Assembly: GCF_907164915.1 (NCBI RefSeq) | Contig: NC_061862.1 | Coordinates: 310,001 to 374,000, forward strand | Direction: 5' to 3' | DNA from: Impatiens glandulifera | Taxonomy: Eukaryota > Streptophyta > Magnoliopsida > Ericales > Balsaminaceae | Length of the DNA stretch: 64,000 nt | In this document: piece by piece, positions 16-52,700 of the stretch | Numbering within the stretch: position 1 is the first letter of the stretch | How the letters are laid out: each line of letters starts with the position of its first letter | Program-made: the position numbers and the translations under genes | The notes under the pieces: model-generated | What the model was told of the DNA's origin: nothing | Database searches by the model: none | The model's input: the letters and a program-made list of their open reading frames with translations, nothing else

Positions 16-3000
16 ATGGCAGAAACAACTGTTACTGAGTTTCCCGGTCGGATTTCGTGGAAAAGTGCCCTCACCCTGAAGAAGATTGTGAATAAGTTCG
101 AGGAAATGGATCTTCTGGAGAGTGTGTACAATACCCAGTTCAGATCCTTATTCACAGCCCCCCTCCTGCAGTTCTCAGGAAGTATTGTACATCAAATGTT
201 GTTGAGGAGGTTAAGCTCAAACTCCAAGGAGATAACTTTCACTGTGAATGGGCAAAAGCTTGTATTTGGTATGAAGGAGTATGCGTTGGTTACCGGCCTA
301 TGTTTCGGCGTTTATCCTGAGTTGGACCTAGAAAAATTGCGCTGTTGTCCACCTCTCTCGGTTAAATACTTTAAAGGGAGCATGAGTGTAAAAATGTGCG
401 ACTTCGAGAAGACTTTTTTCAAATGCAAAGACAAGGAAGATGCATTTAAGATGGGGCTGGTAGTACTGATTTGCCAGTACCTATTCACATTTGACCCAAA
501 AAGAGTTATATTTCCAAAAATACTCAACATGGTGGAAGACAAGGACACTTTCTTCCAATATCCATGGGGGAAGGTCACCTTTAGAGCCACCCTCAAGGGT
601 TTAAACAAGAACATGAAACATCTCTGTACCTCATTTTTTGACAAGAAGGAGAAGGCTGAAGATCCTTATGCTACTTTTGCATATAACATCTATGGGTTCA
701 CATTGGCACTTCAAGTGTGGACGTATGAGGTCATCGAAAACTTTATCCCTAAATTCGCCAGAAGGAATCAGATTAATGACCCTCTACGCCCAAGGTTGTT
801 ACTTTATCATTCCAACAGGAAAAACACATCGATGGAGGTAAAGACTGCCCTAGAGACCACGGATGTGACTGAGATGGAAGAGTCCTCCATGGAGAAGAGG
901 TTATACAGTGGTGATGTATTTGAGCAAATCGACGAGACAGCTGATGATTTTTTTGAGGGCTTTACTGATGGGAAGGTAATAAAAGATGATTTTGATGAAG
1001 ATGATGAAAGTGAAGATGAAGAAGTTACTCCGATTCCCCCCAAACCTGCCACGAGGAAGAGAAAGGCTGATGCTACTCTTAAAGAAGCAGCCAACTTGAA
1101 GAAGAAGCTTGCTTATGAATCGATTCCGGCCCGCATTCTTACTCCCCCATCCGCGACCTCAAGTCCTCGGGCTGACACACCTTCTCCTCGGGCTCCAACA
1201 CCTACTGTTGGATGTGATTTTAATGAGATGAAGGAGGAGCTGAAAATAGAGATGAAAGAGGAGATGAAAAAGATGAAAACAGAGCTCATCAAAGAGCTAA
1301 AAATCACAATCCAAGAAACTCAACAAACTCACGTTGAGTCGTTCAAGAAGATGGTTTTTAATATGTCCACACAGTTGTTAGAAAAATCCAACAAAAGGAT
1401 GTCCATATTATTAACCAGATTAGATGATATGGAGGAGAATATAAAGAGGAAGAAGAGTAAGAAGAAGGATTCTAAGAAGGCTGTGAAGGTCGAAGAGGAA
1501 AAGAATACTGAGGTATGGAGATATTTTACATTTCATTTCGTTAAGTACATATCTGATCTGACCAGTACCTATTTTGCAGGTTAAGGATTGTAAGAAGGAT
1601 GTCGAAGTTGAGAAGAGCAAGGTTGAACAGGAGGAGGAGAAGAAAGAGGTATTCTGCGAACTTTTCGTTTCGCAAAGTAGTTTCCGTTTCGCTAAGTTAG
1701 TATTTTTCGTTTCGCAAAGTAGTTTCCGTTTCGCTAAGTTAGTATTTTTCGTTTCGCAAAGTAGTTTCCGTTTCGCTAAGTTAGTATTTTTCGTTTCGCA
1801 AATTAGTTTCCGTTTCGCTAAGTTAGTATTTTTCGTTTCGCAAAGTAGTTTCCGTTTCGCAAATTATTTGTTGTCGATTCGCTAAGTGTGAATTTTGTCT
1901 ATTTTGTAGGAGATGATAGCGATGCAGGAGACTGTGGGGGATGATGAGAAGGTGAATGATGGGACTGATGGGAAAGACGATGTAATGGAGGACAATGAGA
2001 AGGTGGAGGATGAACAAAAAGAGGACGTTGAGAAGGTGGAGGACGCACAGAAGGTGGAGACCGATGAGAAGGTGGATGATGATGAAAAGATGGATGAGGA
2101 TAAGGTGGAGAACGATGAGAAGGTCGATGATGAAGAGAAGGTGGAGGATGAAAGAAAAGACAACGATGAGAAGGTAGATGATGATGAGAAGGTGGAGGAT
2201 GAACGAAAAGACAACGATGCGAAGGTGGAGGACGTAAAGATAGAGGTTGAGGCTAAATTGGAGGACGGTGAGAAGCTGGATGGTGTGGCTAGGGTGGATG
2301 ATGTGGAGGTTGATCTGAAACTGAAGGATTTGAAAGTGAAGGTGAAGGATGAGAAGACTGTGGGGGATGTGAAGGCAAATGATGACAATGATGACAATGA
2401 CGATATCCAGTTATACAATACTCCTCCTAAAGGAAATTATGGGAGGAGAGTGAGGAAGCCGAAAAAAGATGACTCGTACACCAACCCTTCCTTGTCAAAA
2501 ATGCCCAAGACAAAGGATCCTATGAAAGTGAATCACCTTCAAAAATTTGATGATGAGCTACTTGATAAAGTAAAGGCGTGGTTGGATGATCCAAAAACCG
2601 ATAATTCGACAACGGATTTACATACGGTTCAAGCAAAGAAGGAAGTGTTGGTTAGAGTTGTAACAAGGCTTACATGTATTGAAGACACGGTAAGTCGTTC
2701 AAATCAATTCATTAATCTTCGTTTCGCAAAGTACTTTTCGTTTCGCAAAGTACATTTCGTTTCGCAAAGTACTCTTCGTTTCGCAAAGTACTTTTCGTTT
2801 CGCAAAGTACTTAGTCAATGTTGTTTGATATGTACTGAATGTATGTTGTATGCTCCCATTGTGCAGGAAATCGATGCATTCTGCCATCTTCTGCGGAAAA
2901 GGATTTCCTGCTATCCCAAGACATATAAAAATACACATGCGGCAATTGGGGATTGCGTATTGTCGGATAGAATCAGGCGACTGCACAGGGATTTTATTAA

Positions 3001-3538
3001 GGATCCTGCCAAATATCCAGTCGACGAATTCAAAGACTATTATATGGGCGCACCACATAGATATATGTCAGAATGGTCAACAATTGACGATGTCTACATG
3101 CCAGTGAACATTAACCAGAAACACTGGATTTTGTGTGTAGCACGTCTTCAAAAGTACCGCATTGACGTGTACGACTGTGATGCCTATCTTTATAAGAATC
3201 TGGATCCTTATTTGAAACCCTTCTGCGACATGATTCCAATTATATTCGCCAAAACAATCACTCCCGGTGAGAGGGTAAGGTATCCTAATTTCAACTTCGA
3301 AGGCCCCATCCAACCAATGACTTACAAACGGTTTCCACACCCCAAAGTGAAAACCGCTGCTGCTAAGGTTGGAGAAGTCCCACGGGCAACAGAGAGCGGG
3401 GATTGTGGGGTCTTCACGCTAATGTACATGGAACACTTGACCGCTAATCAACCCGTGCACAATGTGACCTCAGAAAACATGGGATTTTTTAGGCAGAAGA
3501 TGGCGGTCCGGTTATTCCATCAGATTATGGAACCTTAA
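16..3538 (+). CDS. DUF1985-Ulp1 cysteine protease-like protein of a MULE
   Basis: Four exons with consensus borders: 16-1512, 1580-1648, 1910-2689 and 2867-3538, giving 1005 residues. The ATG follows directly on a CTTTTGTAG acceptor, as in the second MULE. Residues about 40-200 form a DUF1985 domain, with the motif FTVNGQKLVFGMKEYALVTG. Then come a basic region, a coiled coil (about 405-480), and a degenerate acidic repeat built on DEKVEDE units in exon 3. The last exon is a Ulp1 C48 peptidase domain with the triad His868 (KHW), Asp885 (VYDCD) and Cys962 (SGDCGVF). Ulp1 enzymes remove SUMO; whether this one does is unknown. Such proteins are encoded by Kaonashi MULEs and, as I recall, DUF1985 also marks the VANC anti-silencing factors of VANDAL MULEs. 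Nothing looks broken. Confidence 0.85.
1663..1888. repeat. 42-bp motif array inside intron 2 of the DUF1985-Ulp1 gene
   Basis: About five copies of a 42-bp unit made of two half units, TTTCGTTTCGCAAAGTAG and TTTCCGTTTCGCTAAGTTAG. They fill almost the whole intron (1649-1909). The same core, TTTCGC followed by (A/T)AAGT, recurs elsewhere in this element but not in the flanking DNA. Confidence 0.9.
2717..2812. repeat. 19-bp motif array inside intron 3, before the Ulp1 exon
   Basis: Five near-perfect copies of a 19-bp unit, TTCGTTTCGCAAAGTACTT, lie in intron 3 (2690-2866, 177 bp). The intron length is a multiple of three and has no stop in frame, so read-through would add 59 residues. The homologous intron of the second MULE (39027-39242) holds an array of a different motif. 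Confidence 0.9.
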
Positions 3539-3690
3539 ACATTATTTTGTGTAAATTGGATAACTTATTTTGATGTATTATAAACCTTGATGAATATTTT
3601 GGAAGTTGGATGATGTATTGTAAATTATTTTGTGTAAATTGATGTATTGTAAATTGACCCTTCAACCTACAAAAAAGATAAGTTAGTAGC

Positions 3691-3802
3691 CTTCGTTTCG
3701 CCAAGTACTCTTCGTTTCGCTAAGTACTTTTCGTTTCGCTAAGTCCCTCCCGATTCGCTAAGTGCCTCCCGTTTCGCTAAGTGACTCCCGTTTCGCTAAG
3801 TT
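3691..3802. repeat. Motif array in the spacer between the two convergent genes of K1
   Basis: Six copies of a unit of about 19 bp around CGTTTCGCTAAGT lie in the 3539-3937 spacer between the ends of the two genes. No gene is seen in this spacer. Either transcript could carry the array in its 3' untranslated region. Confidence 0.85.
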
Positions 3803-3937
3803 AATACTCATCGTTTCCCTACTCATATACTACTACTACTAGAACATACAACATAAACATTAAACCCGAATTAACAACATACTACTACTACCAGTACCAT
3901 AGTTCAATTAACAACATATATTACAACATAGTATCTA

Positions 3938-6784
3938 TCAAGCTAAAGGTTCATATTGTTGAGATGATGAGTCATGCTGCTTAGATGATGAGTCATGCTG
4001 CTTAGATGATGAAGCTCGTGCAGTAGATGGTGCAGGCATAACTGCTTTGCATGTTGCCCTATTATGTCCAAGCCCAGCACATGAGCTGCATCGTCTCGGG
4101 ATCTTACGGACCTCACCCTGGGATGACCTACGCTTTGTTTGTGGCCTGCCTTTCTTAACCTTCACATTTTGTTTAAGACACGAACGTTGCTTGATATGTT
4201 CGGGAACATCCCAATTTTCTTCATCACCGGGAGGATAACATGTCTCGGCATATGAATTTATCCAACACTCAGTTGTGTAATACCTGTGTGTAGGGAAAAT
4301 ATAACGAATTATTAATTGGTTAAACAGAATGAACACGTGAGCTAGATATTAATACCTTGAACAGAAGTCATAAGAAACCAAATTCCGACTACGGGCAGCA
4401 GCCATTGCATGCGTACAAGGAAGTCCCGAAACTTTGAATACTCTACAAGTGCAGTTCATGTCTTTCAAATTGACTTTGAAATGGGACTGATTGTCATGCA
4501 CATAAAACTCGAATCGGTTAAGGGATTGGACTGTATAGAATCTGGCCTTCTCGAATCCCTCACGTAACACCTTCTCATAATTTGGAGATAAAACTTCTTC
4601 GTGATTAGACGCTCTTTCTCTTCTATCGTTAAACCATTGTTGTATTGTGAATCTTAAATACTCAGCCATTTCTGAAATGGGATACTTTCTTGCTTCCTTG
4701 CTCTGACTATTGAAACTCTCAGCATAATTGCTTGTCAGTTGATTGTATCGCTTACCGGGAAAAAATGCTCTACTCCATCTTGGGAACCCAATTTCTTCCA
4801 AATAGGCAGCAATCCGGTGATCTTTAACCTTGATTTTCTCAAACCAACGATTAAATTCGTGGACAGTGTATGCCCTTGAAGCCGAATCAAACTCCGCATG
4901 ACACTTATCACTTTTGAATTTGGCCACAATATTCATCTTTATGTGATATGTGCACGCACCGTGGTCTGCTTCTGGGAAAACAGCACACAAGGCATTAGCG
5001 ATGCTTGGGTGTCTGTCGGATACGAAGACGAGATCATCAACTAATCCAATTGCGTCTCTCAGTTTTTGCATGAAATAAGTCCAGGAGTTATTATTCTCTG
5101 AATCAACAACGCCGAATGCGACAGGATATAGTTGCTCATTCGCATCCAATGCAATAGCCACCAATAATTGACCACCCACCTTGTGCTTAAGAAAACTAGC
5201 ATCAACACATAATACAGGACGGCAAAAGGATTTGAAACCCCTAATTGAGAGGCCTAGGGACATGAACATATACTTGAAGTGACCGAGCTCGTCTGTCTGT
5301 ATGTCGGTTATGGTACCAGGATTACACTTCTCCAACATGTAAAGGTATGATGGCAGTATTCCATAAGAATCCTCTACCGTCCCTCGCACCGCTATTAAAG
5401 CATTTTCCCTTGCCCTCCATGCCTTATTATAAGTCAAAAATATCCCATAAGTTGTCTGCATGTCTTCAATTATTTTCTTAGGCAAGTGGTTATGATGATG
5501 GTCCATGTACTTGCTCTTCACGCACTGCCCAATAACCCATGCTGGTGTTTGCATTTTTTTCTTGGGCCTCGACAAAGTTGAGCATGAGTGTTGATGCTCA
5601 AATGTCCGGATCTCAAACATCTCAGAAAACTTACCTTTCACAGCCCACAAACTCCACTTGCATGTCTCATCCAAACATTTGAGTTCCCAAAGATTTTTTC
5701 TTGACTTCTCCACTTTGAATTCAAAATGATTGGCCATCGCATATTTATATAGAGCAAGTTGAAGTTCTTTTTTATTTTCAAAGAACGAACCAACTTCCAA
5801 TACGGTTTCACTAGTTAATGCCATCGCAAATGTGGGGTCTGGCGGTGATGTGTCTGTCGGGTCTGTCGATGGTGTACCCATTGAAGATCGTCTTGCACTA
5901 GATGGTGTACCCATTGATGATCTTCTTGCACTTGTTGGTGTACCATTTGATGCCTTTCTTGCACTAGTTGGTGTACCCAATGGTGATCTTCTTGCACTTG
6001 GTTGTATAGGTATTGATGCTTTTTCACCACTATTAACATGCAAGTCCTGAGTAAGTGGGATGTGAGGCAAAGAGGTTTCTCCGGCTTCATTTTGACTTTC
6101 AACAAAGAATTCCAAGGGTACAACAGGTGGAACAAATTTCTGAGTAAGTTGTGGTGGTAGTATACTTTCTTGAGTTGGGTATGTAAGTAGTGGTATCTTT
6201 TCTTTAGTAAACGCTGACTTCTCCACTACAGATACACACAATGGTGACACTGTTCGACCCAAAATCAAGCGTGATAGATATGTGTTCAAATCCCCATCAT
6301 TATCAATAAAAACAGGTTTTGGATTTCTGATATTCGGAATATCATACTTCACTTGGAGCACTAAATCGTATGCTGATATCTGGAGATTAAGTCTATCGTA
6401 GAGTATATCAAGTAATTCAGCATAACGAGTATTTTGGGGTAGATCAAATGTTTTGATTGAAGATGCATCAAAAAACAGTATTCCATCAGCATCAAGTTTC
6501 CACTCTCCATTATAGAAAACGAAAACTTCAGCTGCAATATAAAAACATGATTTGATTTAGAGACGGATAATTAATACTTCGCGAATCGCTATGAACTTAG
6601 CGAAACGGGAAGGCCTTCGCGAATCGTAAGGCACTTAGCGAAACGAGAAGTCCTTCGCGAATCGCTGGGAACTTAGCGAAACGGGAAGTAAACCCTAATC
6701 AATCTCAGAAAACGAACATCAATAAAACATGCTTCAAATAGACGTACCTATTGGAACAGTGCTCGTGCACGTCGTCGAGCTCAT
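3938..6784 (-). CDS. MURA-type transposase of MULE K1
   Basis: Three exons on the minus strand: 6784-6748 (ATG at 6784), 6531-4356 and 4283-3938. The GT/AG borders preserve frame and give 852 residues, a normal MURA length. In order: an N-terminal MULE region with EVFVFYNGEWKLDADG, a low-complexity stretch of repeated SARRSSMGTP units, a MuDR DNA-binding domain (about 253-330), a MULE DDE transposase core (Asp456 in CVDASF and Asp518 in VSDRHPS, then HGACTYHIKMN), a SWIM zinc finger (CTC...PCTH, ending near His720), and a CCHC knuckle in the last exon. It would cut and move the element in the nucleus. No stop or frameshift is seen. The third acidic residue of the DDE triad was not assigned. 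Confidence 0.88.
6578..6687. repeat. Motif array inside intron 1 of the transposase gene
   Basis: Alternating CTTCGCGAATCGC and ACTTAGCGAAACGGGAAG units, the reverse complement of the motif seen in the partner gene. They lie between transposase exon 1 (6748-6784) and exon 2 (from 6531). The second MULE has its array in the same intron with another sequence. Confidence 0.85.
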
Positions 6785-6955
6785 AGTGGATTTCGAACGA
6801 ACTTCTCCGACGAGATCGCCGCCGCCGCCGCCGGAGTTTAGAGAGAAGGAGGAGAAGAGCGGGAAGAGAGAGAAGGAGAAGAAAAAAATGAAAAAAAAGT
6901 ACGGAGGTTATATTAAATAGTAAGGGCAATTTGGACATTTCACATGTCGTCACTT

Positions 6956-6986
6956 CGCGAAACGCTAAGTGACTTAGCGTTTCGCG
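6956..6986. repeat. Perfect palindrome of the K1 motif near the right terminus
   Basis: Two 14-base arms, CGCGAAACGCTAAG and CTTAGCGTTTCGCG, around the spacer TGA. This joins two opposed copies of the element motif, about 90 bp inside the right end and upstream of the transposase ATG. It could be a protein-binding site or a cruciform; its function is inferred only. Confidence 0.9.
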
Positions 6987-7075
6987 ACAAGGGCAAAATC
7001 GTCCAAAAAAAAAAAAATCACCACGAGCGCAATAAAATTATCACTTTACCATCAGATCAAATAACCAAATTTCCC

Positions 7076-12402: not shown

Positions 12403-14455
12403 TGTTGGGTCAAATTATTTTGACTAAGTGTTGAAATAATTTACCCACTGATATTTTGATGATAAAATAATTTATGAGTTTTGATACAGGTGTATTAAGA
12501 CAACATGTTATTAGACTTGGATCTAATGAGGGTCATTAGACCGATTTTGATCTCCATTCGCATAAAATTAGACGCAGGTCTAATGGAATTAGACGCACAA
12601 TCTAACTCAACGGAGTTAGACGGGCAGTCTAATAGACGCATGAATTAGACGAGAGTCTAATGGAAATAGACGTGAGTCTAATAGAATTAGACGTACAGTC
12701 TAACTCATCGGAGTTAGACGTGTAAGTCTAATAGATGTGTAAAGAATTAGACGGATGGTCTAATGAATACACGGAATTAGACGTGAGTCTAATAGAATTA
12801 GACGTACAGTCTAACTCATCGGAGTTAGACGTGTAAGTCTAATAGATGTGTAAAGAATTAGACGGATGGTCTAATGAATACACGGAATTAGACGTGAGTC
12901 TAATAGAATTAGACGTACAGTCTAACTCATCGGAGTTAGACATGTAAGTCTAATAGATGTGTAAAGAATTAGACGGATGGTCTAATGAATACCGGAATTA
13001 GACTTGACAGTCTAACTCAGTGGAGTTAGACGTGCCAGTCTAATGGTTATTATAATTAGACGGGTTGTCTAATTAGTGAAAGTTAGACGTGAGTCTAACT
13101 CCTTCAGACAAGTCTGAGATAGAACCGGAATTAGACGTGGCAGTCTAACTCAGTGGAGTTAGACGTGCCACTCTAATGGTTATTATAATTAGACGGGTTG
13201 TCTAATTAGTGAAAGTTAGACGTGAGTCTAACTCCTTTAGACAAGTCTGAGGTAGAACCGGAATTAGACGTGGCAGTCTAACTCAGTGGAGTTAGACGTG
13301 CCGGTCTAATGGTTATGTAATAATTAGACGGGTTGTCTAATTAGTGAAAGTTAGACGTGAGTCTAACTCCTTTAGATTAGTCTGAGGTAGAACTAGAATT
13401 AGACGTGTAGTCTAACTCAGTGGAGTTAGACGTACCCGTCTAATGGTTATGTAAATTAGACGCGAGTCTAATTATATTAGACCAGGCGGTCTAATAGACG
13501 TTTTTCATTAGAAGGAGTTGACTTATTTCATTAGACTGATTTTCCCAAATCCGTCTAACTGAAATACGTCTGATGCTCTGTTTAAGCAGTACGCTTGAAT
13601 CTAGCATTTCTCATACCCACGTGCTATAGCTGTACCTACTCCTGCTCCACGTTCATGTGAAGATTAGTACAACAACTATATGCATTCAATCAAGGAATAC
13701 CACGTAAGAGAATTTCCCTCACATTACCCGTTTTGCAGGTACATCCCTGATGGAATATTCGGCGCACTACCAGATCGGTACGACCACAATCCTTGTGCTC
13801 AGATCCTGCTGTGTACAATGGAGGCTTTCCAATTGAAGAGCGCCACGTATCATTCTTGAAGATTCGACCGTTAGCTCCTGCTTAGTATTTAATCAATCCT
13901 AAGGACAACGGACGAAGCAGTGATTTTAGCCTCAACCAATCTTACGAACAAGCATTCTGATTTTGCAGAGAAAAACTACTCAATCATCTTGCTTACTGAA
14001 GTTATTTTGTGAAGCTTCTTTCTGATTGTACTGTGTTGAATCGAGAGAGAGCTAGAATCAAAACACCATTAGCTGAGTGATATTCTTCATCTTCTTATAA
14101 TTGAACAGAAAGTGTTCTGTTCAATAGTGATCTAAGTGTGTGTGTAAACTGTATTTGATTCTCATCATATAGTGAATCCTTCCGGTGGTTGGAAGAAGGG
14201 GTGACGTAGGAGAGTTTCTCCGAACATCCATAAACAAATTGCTGTGTTCTTATTTTCTGTCATCTTTTTCATATTTCATCTTGTGCTACAAACCCAAATA
14301 AACAATTCCGCCTTGAATCTGTTTCAAGTGTTTACACAAGTTTGCGTAGAATAGAAAGAAATATTAATCCCTAATAGGATTTCTATCAAACCGTTTTTCA
14401 TAAGCCTTCATCATTAGCCAGACCCCCGTCTCTATTGATAAAGTCGATCCTATCA
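12403..14455 (+). repeat. 5' LTR of element A
   Basis: 2053 bp, TG...CA. The first half is the TTAGACG array; the second half holds the transcribed part, with GTGACGTAGGAGA..TTTCTCC near 14201-14221, a short hairpin also seen in the other Copia LTRs here. It is 108 bp longer than the 3' LTR because it has one more copy of the 111-bp array unit. Confidence 0.95.
12530..13510. repeat. TTAGAC/GTCTAA array inside LTR A
   Basis: Dozens of copies of TTAGACG and its complement GTCTAA, often facing each other (ATTAGACGTGAGTCTAAT). Two higher-order tandem repeats are superimposed. A 111-bp unit is present three times (starts 12662, 12773, 12884) against two in the 3' LTR (20990, 21101). A 133-bp unit occurs about four times (starts 12991, 13124, 13257, 13392). 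The same motif appears in the internal spacer at about 19080-19290. Confidence 0.95.
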
Positions 14456-14457
14456 AT

Positions 14458-14470
14458 TGGTATCAGAGCC
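14458..14470 (+). other. Primer binding site of element A
   Basis: TGGTATCAGAGCC, two bases after the 5' LTR, matches the 3' end complement of plant initiator-Met tRNA, the usual Copia primer. Confidence 0.95.
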
Positions 14471-14504
14471 TTGTTTCTATTCTCAAGCATCAAGTTCCCA
14501 AAGC

Positions 14505-15215
14505 ATGTCTTGCATCAATAAAATCCCTCTTTTCTCAAAGGACAACTATGATATGTGGATGGTAAGAATGCAAGCTCACTTGGCTGCTATTGACTATGAT
14601 ACGTGGAGTGTCATCACCGATGGTCCCATAAAGATCTCAAAGCCAAGAAGTGAGTGGACCACTGAAAATAAAGTGACCAACAACCTGGATAATGTTGCTA
14701 AGAACATTCTGTTCCAGTCTCTCAACACGAAGATGTTCTGTGAGATTAAGTCATGTTCCAATGCAAAAGAAATATGGGATAAGCTCAGCCAGATCCATGG
14801 AGTGAGCCCTCAAGCAAAGAACAACCAGAACGCATTCATTTGTAGTCAGAACAAATCCAGATGGGCTGACAGTGATACTGAGGAGTCTCCCACCGAAAAA
14901 GAGAATGAAGCTGTAACATGCCTGATGGCAGATGACCAATCTAAGGTAAATGATATCTCTGCACCAGAATTTACAAACGAGGAGCTAACTAATGCACTCA
15001 ATGAAATGACTATTGAGTACAAAAAGTTAGCTGACTCTTTTTATGAAATGAAAGTTAAATATGAATCAACTGTTCCCTTTTCAAAGCAAGAACCCGAATC
15101 AAATGTTTTTGATGAAAACTTAATAGAGATCTCATCTGAGAATGAGATGCTCAAGAAACAGATTCAAACTCTTTCATTTGAAAACAAGAGACTGAACTAC
15201 ATAGTCAGTGCATGA
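14505..15215 (+). CDS. gag: Gag of element A, internally deleted
   Basis: Opens MSCINKIPLFSKDNYDMWM, the usual start of plant Copia Gag, followed by a shortened UBN2 region. Near SQIHGVSPQAK the sequence jumps to SRWADSDTEE, so the second half of UBN2 and the CCHC zinc knuckle seen in B are missing here: an internal deletion. A splice donor lies at 14945/14946. Unspliced, the frame runs through a coiled-coil extension to TGA at 15213-15215, and after that stop continues in the same frame to 15671. The ATG at 14505 is preferred over the in-frame ATG at 14457, which overlaps the primer site. Confidence 0.8.
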   Translation: MSCINKIPLFSKDNYDMWMVRMQAHLAAIDYDTWSVITDGPIKISKPRSEWTTENKVTNNLDNVAKNILFQSLNTKMFCEIKSCSNAKEIWDKLSQIHGVSPQAKNNQNAFICSQNKSRWADSDTEESPTEKENEAVTCLMADDQSKVNDISAPEFTNEELTNALNEMTIEYKKLADSFYEMKVKYESTVPFSKQEPESNVFDENLIEISSENEMLKKQIQTLSFENKRLNYIVSA

Positions 15216-15722
15216 ACAAGGTCTGGTGATGCTGTCAGATATCAGATCAGCATGTTGAAACCTGCTGGATCTAGATCCGGATTGGGATTTGATAGCAATG
15301 ATCCTAACTTGTCCTGCAAAAAGTCAAAGCCAAATGACAAACTTAAGTCAATAAGTTTTGTCAAAGGAAGTATGACTGACATTGAATCTGATCCTATTCA
15401 TGAAGAAATGACTTTTAAAAATAAAATAGTTTATGTTCCACCAACTGTTAGCCGGCTTAAGAATAAGCTTGAAAAGGCTAATAAGTCTGGTAATTTAAAA
15501 CCTGACTCAATGTCAAGGAGTTTTAAAAGAAAATCTTCTTCAAAAGCTAAAGGATCAGTGGCTAGCAGGAAGTCATCTGCTAAGTCAAAAACTTATGCAT
15601 TAATCACAACACAAAATGGGAAATCCATCAAAATAACTCAAATATGGATTTCTAAGGGACTGATTGATTGAGGACCCAATTAAAGGTGGGTACCAAAAGA
15701 TTGTAAATATCTATTTATGTAG
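14946..15722 (+). other. Putative intron at the gag-pol junction of element A
   Basis: Donor AAG/GTAAAT after codon 147 of Gag and acceptor CTATTTATGTAG/G at 15722. Removing the 777 bases joins Gag in phase to VQINEGLEESVWYLDSGC, the start of the protease. It also removes the gag stop at 15213 and further stops at 15669-15671. Element C has an intron with the same position and signals; element B lacks it exactly. Confidence 0.7.
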
Positions 15723-18700: not shown

Positions 18701-18896
18701 CAATCCTGTTCTGCATTCTCGGACAAAGCATATTGAAATCAGGCATCATTTCATCCGAGAACACGTCAATCAGAAGCAAATCTGTCTTGAACATGTTCCT
18801 ACAGATCAACAAACTGCAGACATTTTCACGAAACCTCTACCGGAAGCTAAGTTTTCTCATTTTAGAAACATGCTAGGTCTTGTTGATCTTGATTGA
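15723..18896 (+). pseudogene. pol: Pol of element A: protease, integrase, reverse transcriptase, RNase H
   Basis: One continuous frame in Copia order. Protease: YLDSGCSRHM. Integrase: HKRLN...CIACQ zinc region, HMDLFGP, and QNGIAERRVRTL. Reverse transcriptase: [20 protein letters not shown] and YVDDIIFG. RNase H: STAEAEYLAAG and DIFTKPLPEAKF. Five in-frame stops (16530, 17307, 17421, 17490, 18525) break it; four lie at Gln or Trp codons, as expected from C-to-T decay of methylated DNA. There is no frameshift. The first RNase H motif (SDADYAG in C) is altered to PMQNYAG next to a small insertion, so a catalytic Asp is lost. Confidence 0.92.
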
Positions 18897-19684
18897 CGTA
18901 ATTATGTGCATAAATTGAGGGGGAACGTATTGTTCAAAATGAAACTGAATAGATATGAAAGACGGAGGTCTTAACTTGTCCTAAGGATTAAGAGTTTGAG
19001 AAACACAGCTACTTAGACGAACATCTCCCTTAGCAGTTTCATCTTTATATGAAATCATTGTCTTGGTTATTTTAACCTGCTTGGTTAGACGGATGCATCT
19101 ATTAGACGGACACGTCTAATAGACATTAGACGTTTTTACGTCATGAGCAAGAGGATGCTCACGTCTAATCAAACACGCGTGTCTCACGTGCTGTTATAGC
19201 ACAATTAGACGTACACGTCTAATAGACTGATTTTCAAAAAGAAGTTGAGAATGTGAAAAGGAGAATAAAACGTCTAACTAATGGTGTAATTAGACTCTTC
19301 ATCTCCTGGCATTTAGGACAGTTGTCCTTTAATGATGTCTGTTTAAGTTCTCTTTCCCGCCGAAAAATAAATCAGTCATTCCTCAAAAGAATTGAAGACA
19401 TGTGTCTCTCAATATGCAAGAAATGACTAATATTTCTGACATCTTTTGCTTGTACACTTAGTATTAGACGTTCTATTTCATGCTAACATTAAATGTTGTT
19501 TATTGGGAACTGTCTTTTTAAATTCTTGACGGTAGGAGTAATCATTAGTATTTTTCTTCATGATTAAAACCCCGATATTAACATGTTCATTCACTCTAAA
19601 AGATAGAAGATTCTTGAAATCCCTCTTTCTCTCTTTAGAAGTCGAATCCTGTAAGTCTCTCAAACCCTTGTTCATCAAATCAAA
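18897..19684 (+). promoter_or_regulatory. Spacer upstream of the accessory gene of element A
   Basis: 788 bp between pol and the accessory gene. It holds many TTAGACG copies (about 19080-19290, 19463) and a perfect E2F-type site, TTTCCCGCC, at 19353-19361. A CT-rich leader precedes the ATG at 19685. No coding domain is seen. Confidence 0.5.
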
Positions 19685-30120: not shown

Positions 30121-30579
30121 GTTCTAAGTCGGTTGATTTTCTTTTAATTTTAACCTTGTATCTGTACTTCAAACCGATCTTCATATCGATTCTCTCATTA
30201 TCATGTCATTCTTCTTTAATCAAATATCAATTTAAATTATAAAGTTCAAAAATCGGTTTAAATTCTTCACCGGTTAAATCGCTTACCGCTTCATTCATTA
30301 CCAGTTGAATGGCTTACCGGTTGAATGGCTTACCGCCTTAATTAATTCCCGCCAAAAGGACTCCCGCCAAAAGATTGCCGCTAACTCGTTTTGGAGGGAA
30401 ACTTGCCACCTTTTCTTGATGTGACGGTTCGCGTCAGTTCACATCCAGGCCGCTGCCTATAAATAACTTCATTTGTCTCATTTTTATTCTCTTCCGCGAA
30501 TCTGCTTTCTCTCTCTAACAATCATCTAATCCTCAAACTTTCAATCTTTCCAAATTTTAATCATCTCTCTCTAATCGAA

Positions 30580-34490: not shown

Positions 34491-35843
34491 ACTTTAATAG
34501 AGAAAGAGAGGGATTAGTAATATTGTTACCTAACCATTTGAGGTTTGCTAGAATCTAGATGAAGAATATTTGTGTTAGAGTAGTCGAATATCAAACTCAA
34601 ATTTATTAGAATAAAAGACTGTGTTGGCTATTTGACACGATCTAGCTGTACCTATTCAACTATTTATCAAAAAAAAATAAAAAATAAAGACAATAATGTT
34701 AAAAGAGAACTGTGAATCAACAATCTTTTTAAAAATACTATAGTAATATATTTTTCAGCAATTTATGTTAAGAATTATTCATTTATCCTTATAGAATATT
34801 ATGCTAAGAATTGATTATATCTTTAATAAAAAAATAATATAACAATGTTATCAATAATAAGAATATGAACTCCTTTATTTTAGTAATCAAATTATTATTC
34901 TGAGAATCCAGGTGATGCAAATGCATACAAAAGGGTTCAAAGTAACAAACTAGTTACTGTAACATTGACTTGACTAGAGAGAAATCATATATCTCAATAC
35001 AAGAAGATTTGACTGATTTGATATTTTAAATGGATTACAATTTATTGTTATGCCTACTAAATAAGAGGTATATCTAGAATTGCTTCCTTAGAAAATGATC
35101 AAATGAAGATAAATTTGTGTAGCCTAGATTTTAAAATCCATAGAAATGAATGATGTAGATATCAAACAAAAAAGCTAAATTTACATAAAAAACTAGAACA
35201 AAACTATTTTTAAAACAATATTAAGAGCAATTTATTCTACCTTTCCTCATCTTCTTAAACATGGGTTTTTTTATGTATATACTTTACCTTAATGTAACTT
35301 GAGCTACAGTCTACCATAACTAGTCAGGTCAATTATAACTCAAACATATCAAAATTATGTAGAAGAAATGTAAACAAGAAGACAACAAAATATCACTAAT
35401 ATAGGATGGAAAACTTAGCCCTAAGAATCTATGTAATATCTTCTCTAACATTCTTAAACTGCTCTAGACTAGAAGCAAAATATTTTAGTGAAGTTACCTC
35501 GAGCACGTGCAAAAACTTCTGAAATTGGATTAGAAGCAAAGCATTTTGGTAAATCTACTTATTACAGAAAACTTTTTATACTAAGTATTAAATATTTAAC
35601 GAAAGAGATTAACAATCTAGGTTTCTAATTGCATTTTCAGTAAAATGACCTAGAGATAAAACTGATCGGAGAAAATAGAACGATCGAGATAGATAGATTG
35701 AAAGATAGATAGAGAGATATATACCATTAACTGTTTCTTTTCTGATTCCTCGAGGTTGATCGCCTTCATTCCCATATTGAGACAGCGAAAGAATCAAATC
35801 GAGCGGATGAGAAAAATTGAAAATTAGAAGAGATCTCTACTCA
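34491..35843. other. AT-rich spacer with a possible first exon on the minus strand
   Basis: Mostly AT-rich without a supported gene. At 35775-35725 on the minus strand an ATG opens MGMKAINLEESEKKQLM and runs to a GTATAT donor, with a GATA-rich stretch just beyond. It looks like a short first exon, possibly of a host gene or of the En/Spm-type gene. The K2 MULE is inserted just upstream of it. Confidence 0.3.
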
Positions 35844-35968
35844 GGGGAAATTTGACGAAATAACCCTGATAACATGGTTATTCCCAAAAATAACAGGGGG
35901 GAGTAAATTTTACAAAATTGACCTTTTACACCTGGCAAAAGACCAATATACCCCCTTTCAAAAACCTA
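35844..35968 (+). repeat. Left terminal inverted repeat of K2
   Basis: Starts GGGGAAATTTGACGAAATAA; closely matches the reverse complement of 42360-42484 over about 125 bp. Confidence 0.92.
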
Positions 35969-36317
35969 TTCTTTCCCTCTGTTTTCCCTCCCACGCCTCA
36001 TTTCATTTCTCTTCTTTGTCCCCCCAACCGTTGGTATCCTTCTTTCTCTCTTCTTCTTCCCCAACAAACCAAGCCGATCAAAGAACCAACGAAGCAATTA
36101 CCCAATTGATCAACTCCCCGAGGCAATGCCGTAACGTCGTCTTCATCATTTCAGGTAGGTTTTTCCCGTTTTTCCATCGCTTTCCTCTTACATGCATGCT
36201 AAATGAAAGAAATGGTTTTAGGGTTTTAGCGTTTTAGAGTTTAGGTTTAGGGTGGAAGAATTGTTTTTTTGAATGGTGAATGGTTTAAAGGGTTTTACGA
36301 TGGAATATGTATATTAA

Positions 36318-36560
36318 ATCTACGAAGATGTATTTGCGTCTACGAAGATGCATTTGCGTCTACGAAGATGCATTTGCGTCTACGAAGATGCATTTTTCGT
36401 CTATAAAGATGCATTTTTCGTCTACGATGATGCATTTTTCGTATGCGAAAATGAAATTTCAATTGAGCAAATGCATTTTTCGTCTACGCAATTGAAATTT
36501 CATTTTCGCATACGAAAAATGCATCTTCACAGATGAAAGATGCATCTTCGCAGACAAAAA
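36318..36560. repeat. 20-21-bp motif array in the 5' intron of the K2 DUF1985 gene
   Basis: Tandem TACGAAGATGCATTTGCGTC units (20 bp), then 21-bp TTTTTCGTCTACGATGATGCA-like units, and at the end inverted copies (CATACGAAAAATGCATC). It lies in a 5' untranslated intron that starts near 36155 (CAG/GTAGGT) and ends at CTTTGTAG before the ATG at 36663. The K1 counterpart of this intron is mostly outside the window. Confidence 0.88.
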
Positions 36561-36662
36561 ATGTCTTATTTGCTTTCTTAAGTGGTATTTGCTTTCTTAA
36601 GTGTTTTTTTAGTAGTCTAACATAGGGTTATGCAAATTTTAGTCTAACATGTTTCTTTGTAG

Positions 36663-39600
36663 ATGGCACAAATCAAAACCAAATCCGTTATTGAGAAATT
36701 TTCTGGCTGTGTTTCATGGAAATCCGCCTATACCTGCTTGTCAAAGACAAAGGAGAAGTTTAATAACCTTGGTCGTATGGATAGGGCTTTCCAGACTCAA
36801 TTTCAGCATATATTGACAGCCCCAACTATAATTTTCTCAGGAATAATAATCCATCAAATTCTAATGAGGAAAAGCAACTCCAATTCACAGGGGATAAGTT
36901 TCCTAGTCAATGGTTAGGAGTTTTGATGTCGTGGTGACAGGCCTCAACTTTGGAAGATTTCCTATGGTCGAAAATAGGCACATTGAAGAATGTCCACCCA
37001 TAGTCCATAAATATTTTTTGGGGGGAAAACGATTGTTAGAGTGAATGAGGTTCAAACAAGTTTCTTCTAATGCTCTAATAAGGAGGATGCATGGAAGATG
37101 GGACTCATAAAACTGATTTATCAATATCTTTTCAGATCTGATAATTATGGGGGGAAATTTGAAAATCTTCAACATGGTGGAGAACATGGAGATGAGCTTC
37201 AATTTCCATGGGGAAATGTGTCATTCAGTTCAACCCTAAAAGGTATTGACAAAGACATGAAACATCTCTGGGAGGTATACCTAGCCAAGAGGGAAACCTG
37301 CAAGGGGAGTTGTGATGTCACTTATACTATTAATGAGTTCGCACTAGCCTTCTAAGTTTGGACCTATGAGGTTATCAAGATAGGGCCGAGGAAGAGCCTA
37401 TATGTCCAAGGATATTTCTTTATACAGCCTTCAAGAGCAACACCAACACTATCCATTAGGTATCCACTGCCCTCCTGAAGTGCAATGTGTTTACCAAGAT
37501 TGATGAGTCTAAGGAGGAGAAGAGGAAGTACCATGGGGAAGACTTTGAAGATATGGGAGACTACATTTATGATGAATTATTTAACTGGATGGTAAGAACA
37601 TAAGGATTGAATATGGCAGTACTCCCAAAGATGAAATGACTCTCAAACCGGCGCCCAAAAGGAGAAGACTACTTAAAATCACACTAGCCAATAGGACCGA
37701 TAGGTCATTTAGTGATGAATCTAGCCAAGACACCTCTCGGTCTACTATTGATTAATCTAACCAAGACAACACCTCTCGGTCTACTCGGCATGTCCCTTCT
37801 GCGATGACTCCTCAAACTAACCAAGACAATTCTCTATCTAGCCAAGACAATCGAGTGACTCAAGCCCAGACTAATGTCAAGTTTGTTGAGCTGATAAAGG
37901 ATCTAAAGGAGATGACAAATTATGTAAATGAGCTTAAAACTGAAATGAAGCTCATAAAAGAGGATCAACGTGTTATGTTCAACAAAATAATCAAATTATT
38001 GGGGGAATAAAACAACAATAGAATGTTGATTCAGATTTAGTGAAGAAGGAGTTGGAGTTGAAGAGGCTTGATGAGTTGAAGAAGAAGTAAGATGATGAAT
38101 TGGAGAAGAATAGGCTTTTGGAGTTGAAGAAGAAAGAAGATGATGATGAGTTGAATGAGTTAGAGAAGAACAAAGAAGATGTTGACGGATTGGAGAACAA
38201 AGATGATGTTGGGTTGAATGACATGGAGAACAAAGAAGATGTTGATGGGTTGAAGAAGAAAGATGTTGTTGATGGGTTGAATGGGTTGGAGAACAAAGAA
38301 GATCATGATGGGTTGGAGAAGAAAAATGTTGTTGATGAGTTGAATGAGTTGGAGAACAATGATGATGATGAGTTGGAGAACAATGATGATGATGAGTTGG
38401 AGAACAAAGAAGATGTTGATGGATTTGAGAACAAAGAAGATGACGATGAGTTGAAGCGGAAAAAGTTGCTTGAGTTGAAGTGGTTGGAGGTATTTGAGGA
38501 AGAATAGTTGGAAAAGAAGCAGACTGAGTTGAAGATGGACGATAAGGAAGATTTGGCCACAAATAAGAAGAAGGAGTTCCTCACGAAGAAGGAGTTGGCC
38601 ATGAAGAGGAAGGTGGAGTTGGAGAAGAAGAAGGAGTTGGCCAAGAATAGGAAGGAGGAGTTGGCCAATAAGAGGAATGTGGAGTTGGAGAAGAAGAAGG
38701 ATGGTGATCAGGAGTTGGCGAAGAAGAAGAATGATGATTTATTAGAATGACTCCAACAAAATTTTCGGGAAAGAAATTTCGGAGAAAGAGTAAGAAGTCC
38801 ACCCTATTGGGGAACTACATAGACCCTAGTGGAAAAATGTTTATACTCAAAGATTCGGTAACGGTCAATCCTCTTTTAGATTATTACATTGAACATATGG
38901 ATGAGTTGAACAATTAGATGAAGTTGGAGGAGGTGAAGGATGAAGACTTGAAAGATCTGGTTACTTGCCTAGCTGATAAAAAATTGTTTGGCAAATTGAT
39001 GAAGCCTCATAATTGGCTAAATGATGATGTAAGTTTTGTTTAGTAACATATATTTTTCGTTTGCGAAAATGCATTTTCGTAGGCACAAAATACAATTTGT
39101 GACTGCGAAAATGCATCTTCGCAGACGAAAATTGCATTTTGCGCCTGCGAATATGCGTTTGCATCTACGAAAATTACAATTCTGAGTTGGATGCCTGTTG
39201 TCAGTATGTATAATGTGCTTAATTCATTTTTTCCATTGCATAGGATATAAATGTAACATGTTTCCTTCTTAGAAAAAGGGTTGCCCAATTCCACAAGATT
39301 TATCATCCGATGAATTTCACAATATGTTACTGTCATATCGCTCCGAAGTTTGAGTCTCATTATGCACAGTTCACCGTAGATCCAGAAAATTACAAGTTCG
39401 ACATTACCTTCATGGAATATTTAATGGGTGATGTTGATAGATTCCTGACTTCTTGGAATAGCGTAGATATCATATATATCCCTATTAACCTGAAGCTGAA
39501 ACACTAGGTCCTATGCTAGGTGCATCTACAAGGTTGGTGCATCAATATATATGACTGCGAATAGGGACTTTTCAAAAAGGATCATTATGACAAGTTCATG

Positions 39601-39900
39601 AAACCACTATGTGAAATGCTTCCATATTTGCTTGAACATGGAATGACCCATGTTGACTTAGCCAAGTATCCTAAGTTTAAATTGGAAAGTTTGTCATATG
39701 TCGTAATACCATACCCAACAGTCCCAATGTGCACCAAGAGTGTGGATTGTAGTGTTTTTACAATCGTGTATATAGAGTACATTACTGCCAAATTGGATGT
39801 ATCAGTTGTGATCACATAAAAGATGTTTTTTTGAGACAAAAATGGATAATAAGGTTATTCCATCATATAATAGAGTTGTAGAAAATGGACAGTAAGGCAC
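36663..39900 (+). pseudogene. DUF1985-Ulp1 gene of K2, decayed
   Basis: ATG at 36663 directly after a CTTTGTAG acceptor. A DUF1985 domain follows (SGCVSWKSAYTC, ILTAPTIIFSGIIIHQILMR), broken by a stop at 36915 and frameshifts, then a Glu/Lys-rich repeated tract (38040-38755, ELENKEDVDG-type units) like the acidic tract of K1. A Ulp1 domain lies at 39243-39820, after an intron with donor GTAAGT near 39028. In the Ulp1 part the Trp after the catalytic His is a stop (LKLKH then TAG) and the Cys motif reads SVDCSVF instead of SGDCGVF, so it is inactive. Weak stops follow near 39818. Confidence 0.85.
39046..39172. repeat. Motif array in the intron before the K2 Ulp1 exon
   Basis: Copies of TTTTCGTTTGCGAAAATGCA and relatives (TGCGAAAATGCATCTTCGCAG). 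The intron is homologous to K1 intron 3, which holds the unrelated TTTCGCAAAGT array. Confidence 0.85.
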
Positions 39901-40089
39901 CCTTCTACCATTTTTAGAGACATCAATGTAAGAATTTATAATGTAGTCTATTTATAAAGAACTAAAGAAACTGCTATAAGGACATTTTTGATTGAGTATA
40001 TAATTTATAATGTAGTCTATTTTTTATTAAAGAAATTGATGTCTATTTTGTCTAAAATGCAAATTGTTGTATAATGTAGTCTATTTTTG

Positions 40090-42275
40090 ATTGATATATA
40101 ATGAATCTTAAATAGTCAGTTAATGTTGTTATGGGATATTTCCTAGCTTCCCTACTATCACTATTAAAACTCTCTATGTAATTGCTTGTCATTTGATTGT
40201 ATCGCGAACCGGGGAAAAATGCACGACTCCATCTCTCCAAAATGCAGATGTAACATTGACTTGGTGTATGCACGAGAAGCCAAATCAAACTCAACGTGGC
40301 AGTTATCAGTTTTAAATTTGGCCATAATATTCATTTTGATGTGGTATGTGCATGCACCGTGATGTGCTTCTATAAAAACTGCGGACAAAGCGTTGATAAT
40401 ATTTAGGTGTCTATCGGATACGAAGACGAGATACAGGACTTAACGAATTACCAACCTTAGTTATTGCATGAAATATGTCCAAAAGTTATTATTCTCCGAA
40501 TCAACGACGCCAAAAGCAACGGGATATAGTTTCTCATTCGCATCCAATGATATCGCAACAAATAGTTGACCTCCAACCTTGTGCTTAAGAAATCTGGCAT
40601 CGACGCACAATACAGGACGACATCAGCTTATGAAACCCCTAATTTAGAGGCCTAGGTACATGAACATATACCTGAAGTAGCCTTGCTCATCCGTCTAGAT
40701 GTCAATTATGGTACCTGAGTTATTCTTCTACAGCATGAATAGGTATGATGGAAATTTACCATAGAAATCCTCCATAGTTCCTCGCACCAACATTAAGGCA
40801 TTTTCCCTGGACCTCCAAGCCTTATTATATGTTAGAGTTAATCCATAGCTTGTATGCATGTCTTCCATTATTTTCTTAGGCATGTGGTCATGGTGATGGT
40901 CCATGTACTTATATTTGATGTACTCCCTAATTACCCATGATGGTGCTTGCCTCACATCCTCTTGCCTCGTCAAAATTGAGCATGTGTGTTCTTTTAAAAA
41001 AATTCGAATCACAAACATCTTAGAGAATTTTCCTTTCGTAGCACACAATCTCCACTTGCAGTTCTCAGCTAGACATTTCACAAACCAAAGATCTTTTGTT
41101 GACTTCTCCACTTTGAGGATAAAATGATTAGACATCGCATGTCTATGCAACCTCAATTGTATTTCTTTTTGTTATAAAAAAATGTACCCACTTCCAATCC
41201 TCTTTCAATGGTTAATTGAGCAAGTGTTTCAATCTCGAGTGGTTCATATGAACCAAGCCACTCAGTATGGCTAAATGTTTTCCTAGTATGGGAAGTGCTT
41301 GGTTCCCGGGGTGAATGGCCTACTCTTGTACTAGCACACTGTCTCGGACACAAACATTGGGCTTGTACTCCTTATTCTGCATGATTTAACAATATGTCAT
41401 TTTGACTTGGGAAGTCATTTAAATGTTCACATACATCTTGTTGCTCACATACATTTTGCTGCTCACATATGTCATTTTGAGTTGGAAAGACATCTTGATG
41501 CTCAAATATGTCATTTTCCTGGTCAAATATTAGGAATACATCACGATTACATCCTGGAATAACATTGCCTGGTATTTTACTTTTTTGAGTTGAAGGTAGT
41601 GACTTCTCTACTAAAGAAACACACAGTGGAGTGCGATGATGGGACAATGAAGTCGGAATTTCTTTTAAATAGAACGTCACATCGCTATCTCACTTGATAA
41701 CAGCAAGAGGAGCATTCATTATAACCATATTATACTTCACTTTGAACACTAAATCATATTTTAATTTGTACACACCAATAGAATCATAGACAATGTCAGC
41801 TAATTCATCATATGTAGTATTTCAGGGTAGATTCACACCATGACATGAACTTAAGACAAAATAACTAACACCATCATTATCAATTTTCCACTCTCCATCA
41901 AAGAGGAGAAAAACACTCACAAACATATTGTCATCTGTAATTGATAAAAATTCACAGAAGTGAGTGGAATTTGTGCCACCATCATCAATTGTATACTAGC
42001 AGTTTGAATTTGTGCAATCATCAATTGTATTTTTCGTAGGCGAAACTGCATTTTTCATAGGCGAAAATACATTTTTCGTTGGCGGAAAATGCATTTTCAT
42101 AGGCGCAAAATGCATTTTCATAGGCGCAAAATGCATTTTCATAGGCGCAAAATGCATTTTCATAGGCGCAAAATGCATTTTCGCTTGCGCTTGCGCTAAA
42201 TGCATTTGCGCCAGCTATAACAATCAATATAAATTGTTTTTAGCTATAACAATATCAATATGAAACTTACTCATC
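40090..42275 (-). pseudogene. MURA-type transposase of K2, decayed and 3'-truncated
   Basis: From the minus strand: a first exon near 42275 (ATGA/GTAAGT), an intron filled by an array, then FLLFDGEWKIDNDGVSYF (about 41920), the MuDR domain (HAMSNHFILKVEKSTKDLWF, 41135 on), DDE-core remnants, and SRAFFPGSRYNQMTSNYIES near 40230. It ends near 40090; the SWIM finger and knuckle are missing. Many stops and frameshifts. The order is the same as in the intact K1 transposase. Confidence 0.85.
42028..42212. repeat. 21-bp motif array in intron 1 of the K2 transposase
   Basis: At least four near-perfect 21-bp units (GCATTTTCATAGGCGCAAAAT) preceded by TTTTTCGTAGGCGAAA variants. On both strands this gives 7-residue repeat frames, which are by-products of the array. 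Confidence 0.9.
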
Positions 42276-42359
42276 GGCGGGAGCTAGAGTTCAGGATACT
42301 ACAGTTGTGGAAGGATAGTAGACGTCAGAGAGTGAGGAAGAAAAGAAGGAAGAGAGGGA

Positions 42360-42484
42360 ATGGTTTTTTAATTTTGGGGTATATTGGTCTTTTACCAGGG
42401 TAAAAGGTCAATTTTGCACAATTTACTTCCCTTGTTATTTTTAGGAATAACCCTGTTATCAGGGTTATTTCGTCAAATTTCCCC
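42360..42484 (-). repeat. Right terminal inverted repeat of K2
   Basis: Reverse complement of 35844-35968. It contains a perfect palindrome, AATAACCCTG-TTAT-CAGGGTTATT (42446-42469). Confidence 0.92.
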
Positions 42485-44007
42485 AGCTCAGATCTCCAAC
42501 ATGAGTCCAATGAGAGAACAGAGAATTCAAACAGAAACTAAGATTAGTTCAAAAAATAAAGAGTAGAATGTTATTTAGAGTTAGTGATTTTTTTATTTTT
42601 TTTATTTAAAATATTAATAAATAATTGATCTTTTAAAATGAAAAAGCAAATATAGCCCCGTGATCTAATAATTGTAGCTATTAATAGCTAGGGAGTGTAT
42701 CTAACATTTTTGTTTGATCAATAACGACAGTAAAACTAAACTGTTACTAAATTTCTTTGCTGTTGATTCATTTTTTTTACTAGTATTGTTTGGTCGAATT
42801 ATATCTATGTAAATAATAACATGACCTAAGCTTGTAGGGAAAATGAATAGTGTGATCATTTCCCTTCTTGAATTTTCCGTTTTGGTTGAGAAATGACGAA
42901 GTTTGAATTTCATCATTTTTCAAAAGTTTTGACTACTCTATCATGAGAAAGAAGAAAACTTCACTCGTAGGCGCTAGCTACTTGGACGTTCCTTTAGCGT
43001 TCATTCTGGGCTAGGCAATTCGTGCTTATTCGTTATTAGGTGTTAGCATTTCCATTTGAGTTGATGGTTACGTGCCTCATTTGATTTGGTCCAAACGCTG
43101 ACCCGTTTGTTTTTTCCGCTTTTTTTTACTTATATATACACAAAATTTAATTAAAATATATAAATTTATTTTACCTGTACCATTTATTATTATTATTTTT
43201 TATATTTTGAATTAAAAATTATTTCTAATTTTAATTATTTTATAATCAAATGATACAACATTTTTCAATAATTATTTGATTTATTTTTGTCCTAAATTTT
43301 AAATATTTTAGGATAAATGGATACATTATTTTTCCAAATTTATATTGTTTTGTTTTTATTTTTTTTCCTTAACTTTAATCATTTTGGATTTACTGAATAC
43401 AATATTTATCTAAAATAATTGTTTACTTCTTACCTTAATTTTAATTATTTAGGGATAAATTGATATAACATTTTCCCAAAATAATTATTTGTTTTATTTT
43501 TCGTAATGAGTCTATAATTTTAGAAAATTATTTTAAAGATTCAAAATTTATATTAAAATTTCATAAATTATTAGAGTTAAAATTAAGGGTCTATAATTAG
43601 AGTACAAAATGTGTGTTTATCTAAAAAAAATTATACTAGTCCAAAACTGGCACTCTTATGCAAATATAATTTAATGCTTATTAAAAAAAATATCATTGCA
43701 AAACTTAAACATCAATAATTAATACTTTTAAAATCAAAATATACTACTTCAAATAATTAATAATAATTTAAACTTAAGAAATAAAAGTTATGGTTTAAAT
43801 TCAAACATTTATAATACAATTAAATGTTTATTAGGATAATTTAAAATTAATTTATTATTAATGGACAATTTTTAAATGGTTTATGCAAAATAATATAAAT
43901 GAGAGTTGTTTAAGCTCAACGATTTAAAAAATTAAAAGAAAAAACATTTAAAAAAAAACACAACACAAAATAATTCACCAATGATCAAACAAAAATAAAA
44001 AAAAAAT
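42485..44007. other. AT-rich spacer
   Basis: No gene seen. Very AT-rich from about 43110, with loosely repeated TTTTAATTATTTT phrases. A slightly GC-richer patch at about 42950-43110 has no recognisable content. Confidence 0.6.
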
Positions 44008-52660: not shown

Positions 52661-52700
52661 ATGTGGGTACCAAATAGTTGTACATATGTATATTTTGCAG
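51899..52700 (+). other. Putative gag-pol intron of element C
   Basis: 802 bases, donor ATAG/GTATGTG, acceptor TATTTTGCAG/GATATG. Removal gives AACGAAAATAG+GATATGAAG; element B at this place reads AACGAAGAACAGGTTATGAAG with no intron. In C one base is missing before the donor, so the spliced frame is now off by one; in A the frame is exact. Confidence 0.72.

Follow-up and report, generated by a model that had tools for sequence, protein, structure and literature searches.

Does a transposable element of Impatiens glandulifera carry its own means of lifting the silencing that its host lays upon it? This question is raised by K1, a Mutator-like element (MULE) at the start of the stretch investigated here (the window; 64,000 nucleotides of contig NC_061862.1). 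K1 consists of two intact, convergent reading frames, a DUF1985-Ulp1 gene on the plus strand and a transposase gene on the minus strand; K1 extends leftward beyond the window, and where it ends on the right is not fixed. The first-pass annotation of this DNA had interpreted the pairing of the DUF1985-Ulp1 protein with arrays of one short motif as a VANC-like anti-silencing system, an interpretation supported by the sequence comparisons and structure models of this study. We consider it likely that this MULE carries a VANC-type system which counters silencing sequence-specifically and belongs to the Ulp1-bearing (KIU) group. It appears to be of the known KIU/VANC kind, with an apparently new motif.

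The DUF1985-Ulp1 gene and its relation to VANC21

The plus-strand gene at 16-3538 was modelled as four exons:

16..1512, plus strand: exon 1, with DUF1985 at residues 68-194 and the predicted VANC21-like fold at residues 4-307
1580..1648, plus strand: exon 2, 23 amino acids (aa), short and charged, placed by the splice model
1910..2689, plus strand: exon 3, acidic, with tandem repeats of the EKVED/DDEKV type (TRF rows within 1986-2226 and the sequence itself)
2867..3538, plus strand: exon 4, Peptidase_C48 (Ulp1; PF02902, E 2.7e-22), with His868, Asp885 and Cys962 from an alignment with SENP1

As had been claimed, the joined exons give a predicted protein of 1005 aa with no internal stop, and three alternative acceptor choices give 1002-1004 aa. 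From its N-terminus the protein displays DUF1985 (PF09331, E 6.6e-20, 72 bits against a Pfam cut-off of 35.1), then an acidic middle region made of repeats and, at the C-terminus, an Ulp1 peptidase; similarity to the Plant mobile domain (PMD) is weak (E 2.2e-05, under the curated Pfam cut-off). The gene may have a further intron and exon 5' of the window edge, because the ATG at 16 comes directly after the splice-acceptor-like TTTTGTAG; in the gene model P0004, MVCDG stands ahead of MAETT.

A search with the N-terminal half of the protein found 31 proteins, 25 of them from Impatiens glandulifera, and the best C48 matches are 97-98% identical to the Ulp1 domain of K1. When the C48 parts of K1 and 17 of the 38 relatives are aligned, with P0004 omitted as an incomplete sequence, Asp103 is invariant and His86 and Cys180 are nearly so. 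Of 18 proteins compared by a pattern match for the catalytic residues, 17 show the Asp and 15 the Cys. The AlphaFold model of Ulp1 on 18 rows is poor (pLDDT 43.7, pTM 0.41).

The annotation had described VANC as a DUF1985-type protein, which agrees with the VANC domains named in the Fig. 5 legend of PMC5735166 and with the match of K1 to VANC21. When K1 was searched against the Protein Data Bank (PDB), VANC21 was the sole match, with E 3e-5 from the single sequence and 1.9e-22 from a profile (A2) in which K1 is joined by 6 proteins, two in trimmed form; the profile-level relation to VANC that the annotation presupposed is therefore present. In the model folded from an alignment of K1 and 12 of the 38 proteins (A3), residues ~4-307 match the fold of the VANC21 DNA-binding region (PDB 9lnj, 9lnk). 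Judged by sequence and by predicted fold, the N-terminal part of the K1 protein is a clear relative of that region.

Two side observations concern this protein family. Intron 3 (2690-2866, 177 bp) is in frame and open to both flanking exons, forming an open reading frame (ORF) at 1910-3538, and its retention would add an array-encoded peptide to the K1 protein. The Impatiens glandulifera protein P0035 (913 aa) joins an N-terminal DUF1985/PMD part to a C-terminal EDC4 domain, a mix that could reflect exon capture, domestication or a gene model joined in error.

Motif arrays in the non-coding DNA of K1

The arrays, the transposase gene and the palindrome are laid out as follows:

1649..1909, plus strand: intron 2 array, 11 units, 10 of them phased, with spacings alternating 19/23 bp (42-bp unit)
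2690..2866, plus strand: intron 3 array, 5 units, 19-bp period
3694..3801, plus strand: spacer array between the convergent genes, 6 units, 19-bp period
3938..6784, minus strand: MULE transposase gene, 852 aa, exons 6784-6748, 6531-4356 and 4283-3938, with MULE, DBD_Tnp_Mut and SWIM domains (Pfam matches to these and to Transposase_mut)
6576..6688, minus strand: transposase intron 1 array, 6 units, CGTTTCGCTAAGT/CGATTCGCGAAGK alternating, 19-bp period
6955..6987, unstranded: palindrome past the transposase start, exact arms 6955-6970 and 6972-6987

The motif TTTCGCWAAGT, described earlier as forming the four arrays, occurs 20 times in the window, all at 1668-6681, where shuffles expect 0.13 and 0/100 reach 20. 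Its supposed confinement to the element stands for the exact core, with 0 copies beyond K1 in the window, but is looser once one mismatch is allowed, as 27 of the 33 matches (2.77 expected) lie in K1 and 6 are scattered past 7000. A wider core, CG[TA]TTCGCNAA[GT][TG], which was composed after the arrays had been seen, recognizes 29 units in five places of K1 (intron 2, 11; intron 3, 5; spacer, 6; transposase intron 1, 6; palindrome, 1); it is absent from intron 1, from transposase intron 2, from the 5577 coding bases of K1 and from 7001-64000. Intron 1 harbors one degenerate copy only (TTTCGTTAAGT at 1536-1546). The stricter form CG[TA]TTCGCNAAG[TG], which excludes two of the 29 units (ending AATT), gives 27 in K1, 0 in the second element K2 described below and 0 elsewhere in the window.

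The same core emerges without any pattern when all units are taken by repeat phase (10+5+6+6 = 27), and its full form is the 13-bp CGWTTCGCNAAGT. Across the 27 phased units of the four arrays, agreement is 0.90 over the 13 core positions against 0.46 and 0.39 over the six flanking bases on each side; nine core positions are invariant, positions 12 and 13 are kept in 25 of 27, and positions 3 and 9 vary. Position 9, which the annotation had given as A/T, is found as A, T, C or G. Units are uniform in orientation within each array, and all 22 intronic units are sense to their host gene. With independence assumed and non-coding DNA taken as ~20% of K1, the chance that all five places fall in non-coding DNA is ~0.0003. 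The palindrome reported near the terminus is exact, with 16-bp arms and a 1-bp centre, and a single unit, CGTTTCGCGAAGT (6952-6964, minus strand), overlaps it.

Each core holds two CpGs, intact in 27 of 27 phased units. Observed CpG numbers exceed expectation in intron 2 (23 against 8.0), intron 3 (11 against 5.8), transposase intron 1 (18 against 9.2) and the spacer (14 against 10.6), as opposed to K1 coding DNA (152 against 247) and the remaining window (1450 against 1958). The richness is not wholly made by the motif, because the stretch past the transposase start, with only one unit, is CpG-rich too (20 against 11.3). It fits recent array growth, protection from methylation or selection, with no choice among the three.

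The VANC21/VANC6 motifs were also tried as K1 sites and set aside: YAGTATTAY and AGTTGTMC occur 4 times each in the window and in neither K1 nor K2, and K1 therefore does not use them.

A second, decayed element with another motif

A tblastn search with the K1 proteins against the remaining window disclosed K2, a decayed element with a layout like that of K1:

35840..42489, unstranded: K2, with terminal inverted repeats (TIRs) at 35840-35971 and 42358-42489 and a target site duplication (TSD) at 35831-35839 and 42490-42498 (8/9)
36319..36563, unstranded: array upstream of the DUF1985 ATG (36664), 20-21-bp period, core around ATGCATTTTTCG
36664..37379, plus strand: DUF1985 part (tblastn 36681-37379, 37% identical to K1 over 249 columns), with stops and a frame break; ATG placed by eye
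39054..39160, unstranded: array in a by-eye intron before the Ulp1 exon, positional counterpart of K1 intron 3
39244..39831, plus strand: Ulp1 (C48) remnant, 33% identical to K1, with stops
40091..41914, minus strand: transposase remnant, 70% identical to K1 over 309 aa, 75% over 48 aa, and 44% over 116 columns at the N-terminus
42031..42182, unstranded: array upstream of the main transposase exon, 21-bp period, positional counterpart of K1 transposase intron 1

Stops are present in all three K2 genes, with 7 inside the 309-codon block of the transposase. The TIRs, about 132 bp long, are identical in 117 of 137 columns, and K2 is of interest as a TIR-bearing relative because degenerate TIRs often accompany VANC-related genes in VANDALs (PMC10398659). 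The right end of K1 was tried as a copy of the K2 TIR and rejected, its local scores (23 and 21) being within the shuffle range (best of 200, 27); a terminus near 7070, weighed by eye, is not claimed.

Between the two transposases dN is 0.18 and dS 0.85 (nonsynonymous and synonymous divergence; NG86, 302 codons), for which reason the transposase was probably under constraint until K2 decayed. The identities suggest that the DUF1985 protein diverges faster than the transposase, and only suggest it, because the transposase N-terminus is itself at 44% and the frame break and stops of K2 depress the DUF1985 figure.

The three K2 arrays have a common core around AAATGCATTTTTCG, and no motif is shared between the K1 and K2 arrays. 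AAAATGCAT gives 18 strand hits in K2, 0 in K1 and 3 elsewhere in the window, and AAATGCATTTT gives 13 strand hits at 7 places, in K2 only (0.12 expected). These words were picked from the K2 arrays, so that the counts are descriptive and not a test; the point is the sharing by three separate arrays.

Comparison with known systems

K1 and K2 resemble the VANC/VANDAL pattern of Arabidopsis. VANC21 binds arrays of YAGTATTAY in the non-coding DNA of its own elements, VANC6 targets are marked by AGTTGTCC/AC arrays, found in the non-coding DNA of its own elements and additionally in AT9TSD1, and VANC6 bound a motif-dense region in vitro; VANDAL transposases are far more conserved than VANC (PMC5735166). 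RNA-directed DNA methylation targets the same non-coding regions as the VANC motif arrays (PMC10398659). Like VANC21 of VANDAL21 (Hiun), the K1 protein has a MULE-encoded DUF1985-type DNA-binding domain, by sequence and fold, as well as a repeat-rich variable region, and in K1, as in VANDAL21, a single short motif forms arrays of uniform orientation in intronic, intergenic and terminal DNA. Unlike VANC21, K1 carries CGWTTCGCNAAGT in place of YAGTATTAY, with two CpGs in the core, bears an Ulp1 domain with no DUF287 found, and resides in an asterid host (Ericales). VANC6 of VANDAL6 is a related protein with distinct arrays of its own (AGTTGTCC, AGTTGTAC), as in the K1/K2 pair, and K1 differs from it in motif and in having Ulp1.

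KIU genes are VANC genes, some of the total, with a captured Ulp1 domain, which is strongly conserved in eudicots, and KIU-carrying VANDALs hypomethylate their own group through motifs in its non-coding DNA (PMC13317346, a 2026 review). In Kaonashi (KI) MULEs the Ulp1 gene runs reverse to the transposase gene (PMC2528002). K1 shares that arrangement, with Ulp1 on the plus and transposase on the minus strand, and agrees with KIU in joining DUF1985 and Ulp1 in one predicted protein, the spliced 1005-aa frame; its motif and its Impatiens host do not appear in the KI/KIU descriptions cited here, and K2 differs in its TIRs of ~132 bp. The VANDAL clade (group 45) is characterized by a 9-bp TSD, a SWIM transposase and TIRs of 46-174 bp, and half of its members carry DUF or PMD partner genes (PMC6446971); the 9-bp TSD and TIR length of K2 and the SWIM transposase of K1 accord with this. 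Among the matches listed, no literature linked Impatiens with VANDAL, DUF1985 or anti-silencing.

Proposed mechanism and alternative explanations

In the proposed system, the N-terminal domain of the K1 protein (~4-307), which by sequence and model folds like the part of VANC21 crystallised with its target DNA, would recognize CGWTTCGCNAAGT in the introns, gene spacer and palindrome of the element, as its confinement, its core conservation and the K1/K2 comparison suggest. By analogy with VANC21 and VANC6, the bound protein would strip silent marks from its sites and, acting in trans, across the element, allowing the transposase to be made. More speculatively, the Ulp1 domain might take SUMO or another modifier off silencing factors at these sites. 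K1 and K2 would then be two such systems, diverged to different motifs.

Several observations weigh against this account. The structural alignment of K1 with VANC21 has only 17% identity, which leaves shared specificity mechanics a conjecture, and three of five AlphaFold models have a mean pLDDT of 55-58. No DUF287 match with an E of 1 or less came from residues 1-499 or from exons 3 and 4, in a Pfam scan that left out the 23-aa exon 2 and dropped most matches above about 0.1; without a DUF287 found, K1 is classed as KIU-like and not as the VANC21/VANC6 subtype. A search for relatives with the translated array (1562-1885) gave none among 4847 candidates at E up to 0.01, and nine array peptides looked for in the relatives P0001-P0038 had no match. 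At a helical repeat of 10.5 bp the intron 2 array is in phase (R 0.83, 10 units) and the 19-bp arrays of K1 are not (R 0.05-0.13); at 10.0 bp the order is reversed (0.51-0.65 for the 19-bp arrays, 0.00 for intron 2). Helical periodicity reportedly matters for VANC targets, according to work ascribed to Sasaki in 2022. Among the K2 arrays, B and C, with 2 and 5 sites, score high at 10.5 bp, and A, with 8 sites, is low (R 0.41). Lastly, K1/K2 is one comparison with a dead partner, in which the transposase N-terminus has diverged strongly as well.

A more far-reaching version, which we regard as doubtful, sees K1 and K2 as one asterid MULE lineage with two diverged anti-silencing systems, in which the arrays stayed in place ahead of Ulp1 and of the main transposase exon, the motif was swapped and Ulp1 is delivered to the same sites. 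With two CpGs per site, the K1 protein must, if this holds, tolerate or even favor methylated CpG, and the factor that removes silencing would have the methylated mark itself as its target site.

Among the rival explanations, the DUF1985-Ulp1 protein might bind the arrays and regulate the element, by activating transcription or as a SUMO protease, with no loss of DNA methylation. The His, Asp and Cys of Ulp1 being in place would suit such a role, which is nevertheless unlikely given the hypomethylation that KIU-carrying VANDALs reportedly cause in their own group (PMC13317346).

The arrays could also be binding sites of the transposase, unrelated to the DUF1985 protein, an explanation we find quite improbable. 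Subterminal repeats serve as transposase sites in some other plant DNA transposons. One K1 unit overlaps the palindrome past the transposase start, an intron of the transposase gene itself holds one array, and the divergent transposase N-terminus could have changed specificity too. Against this, 22 of the 29 units lie in DUF1985-gene introns or the spacer, and the block with the predicted DBD_Tnp_Mut is 70% identical between K1 and K2, which share no motif, compared with 37% for the DUF1985 part.

That the arrays are neutral tandem repeats, spread through introns by slippage and bound by no partner protein, is very unlikely: they are tandem, partly homogeneous (98% matches in intron 2) and, at 19 bp, out of 10.5-bp helical phase, but slippage is a local process, and here one 13-bp core recurs in four separate regions and the palindrome between differing flanks, is missing from K1 coding sequence and the other 57 kb, and has its design repeated in K2 with another motif.

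Other features of the window

Beyond K1 and K2, two complex tandem arrays of GAATTAGACGT...GTCTAA units (12662-13474 and 20991-21691; periods 111 and 133 bp) lie ~8 kb apart. Copia-type retrotransposon genes were noticed at 14442-18900, 23935-26930 and 51066-55913 (Pfam on 52641-54641 only, the others by eye from ORFs). The long ORFs 19655-20443 and 30463-31809 have weak Transposase_32 (PF20167) similarity, under the cut-off, and the ORFs 56489-57184, 57567-58292 and 59194-59967 are alike by eye, 57567-58289 being without a Pfam match.

Implications

The VANC-type system proposed for K1 provides a candidate pair of anti-silencing protein and target far from Arabidopsis, in the Ericales, with the predicted site narrowed to 13 bp and with a solved relative on DNA, VANC21, as structural template. 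The presence of K1 and K2 in one window, with different motifs, offers a natural test of specificity change, and the CpG-bearing units would allow asking whether such proteins bind methylated targets. Pairs of array and protein of this kind might become tools for locus-specific demethylation in plants.
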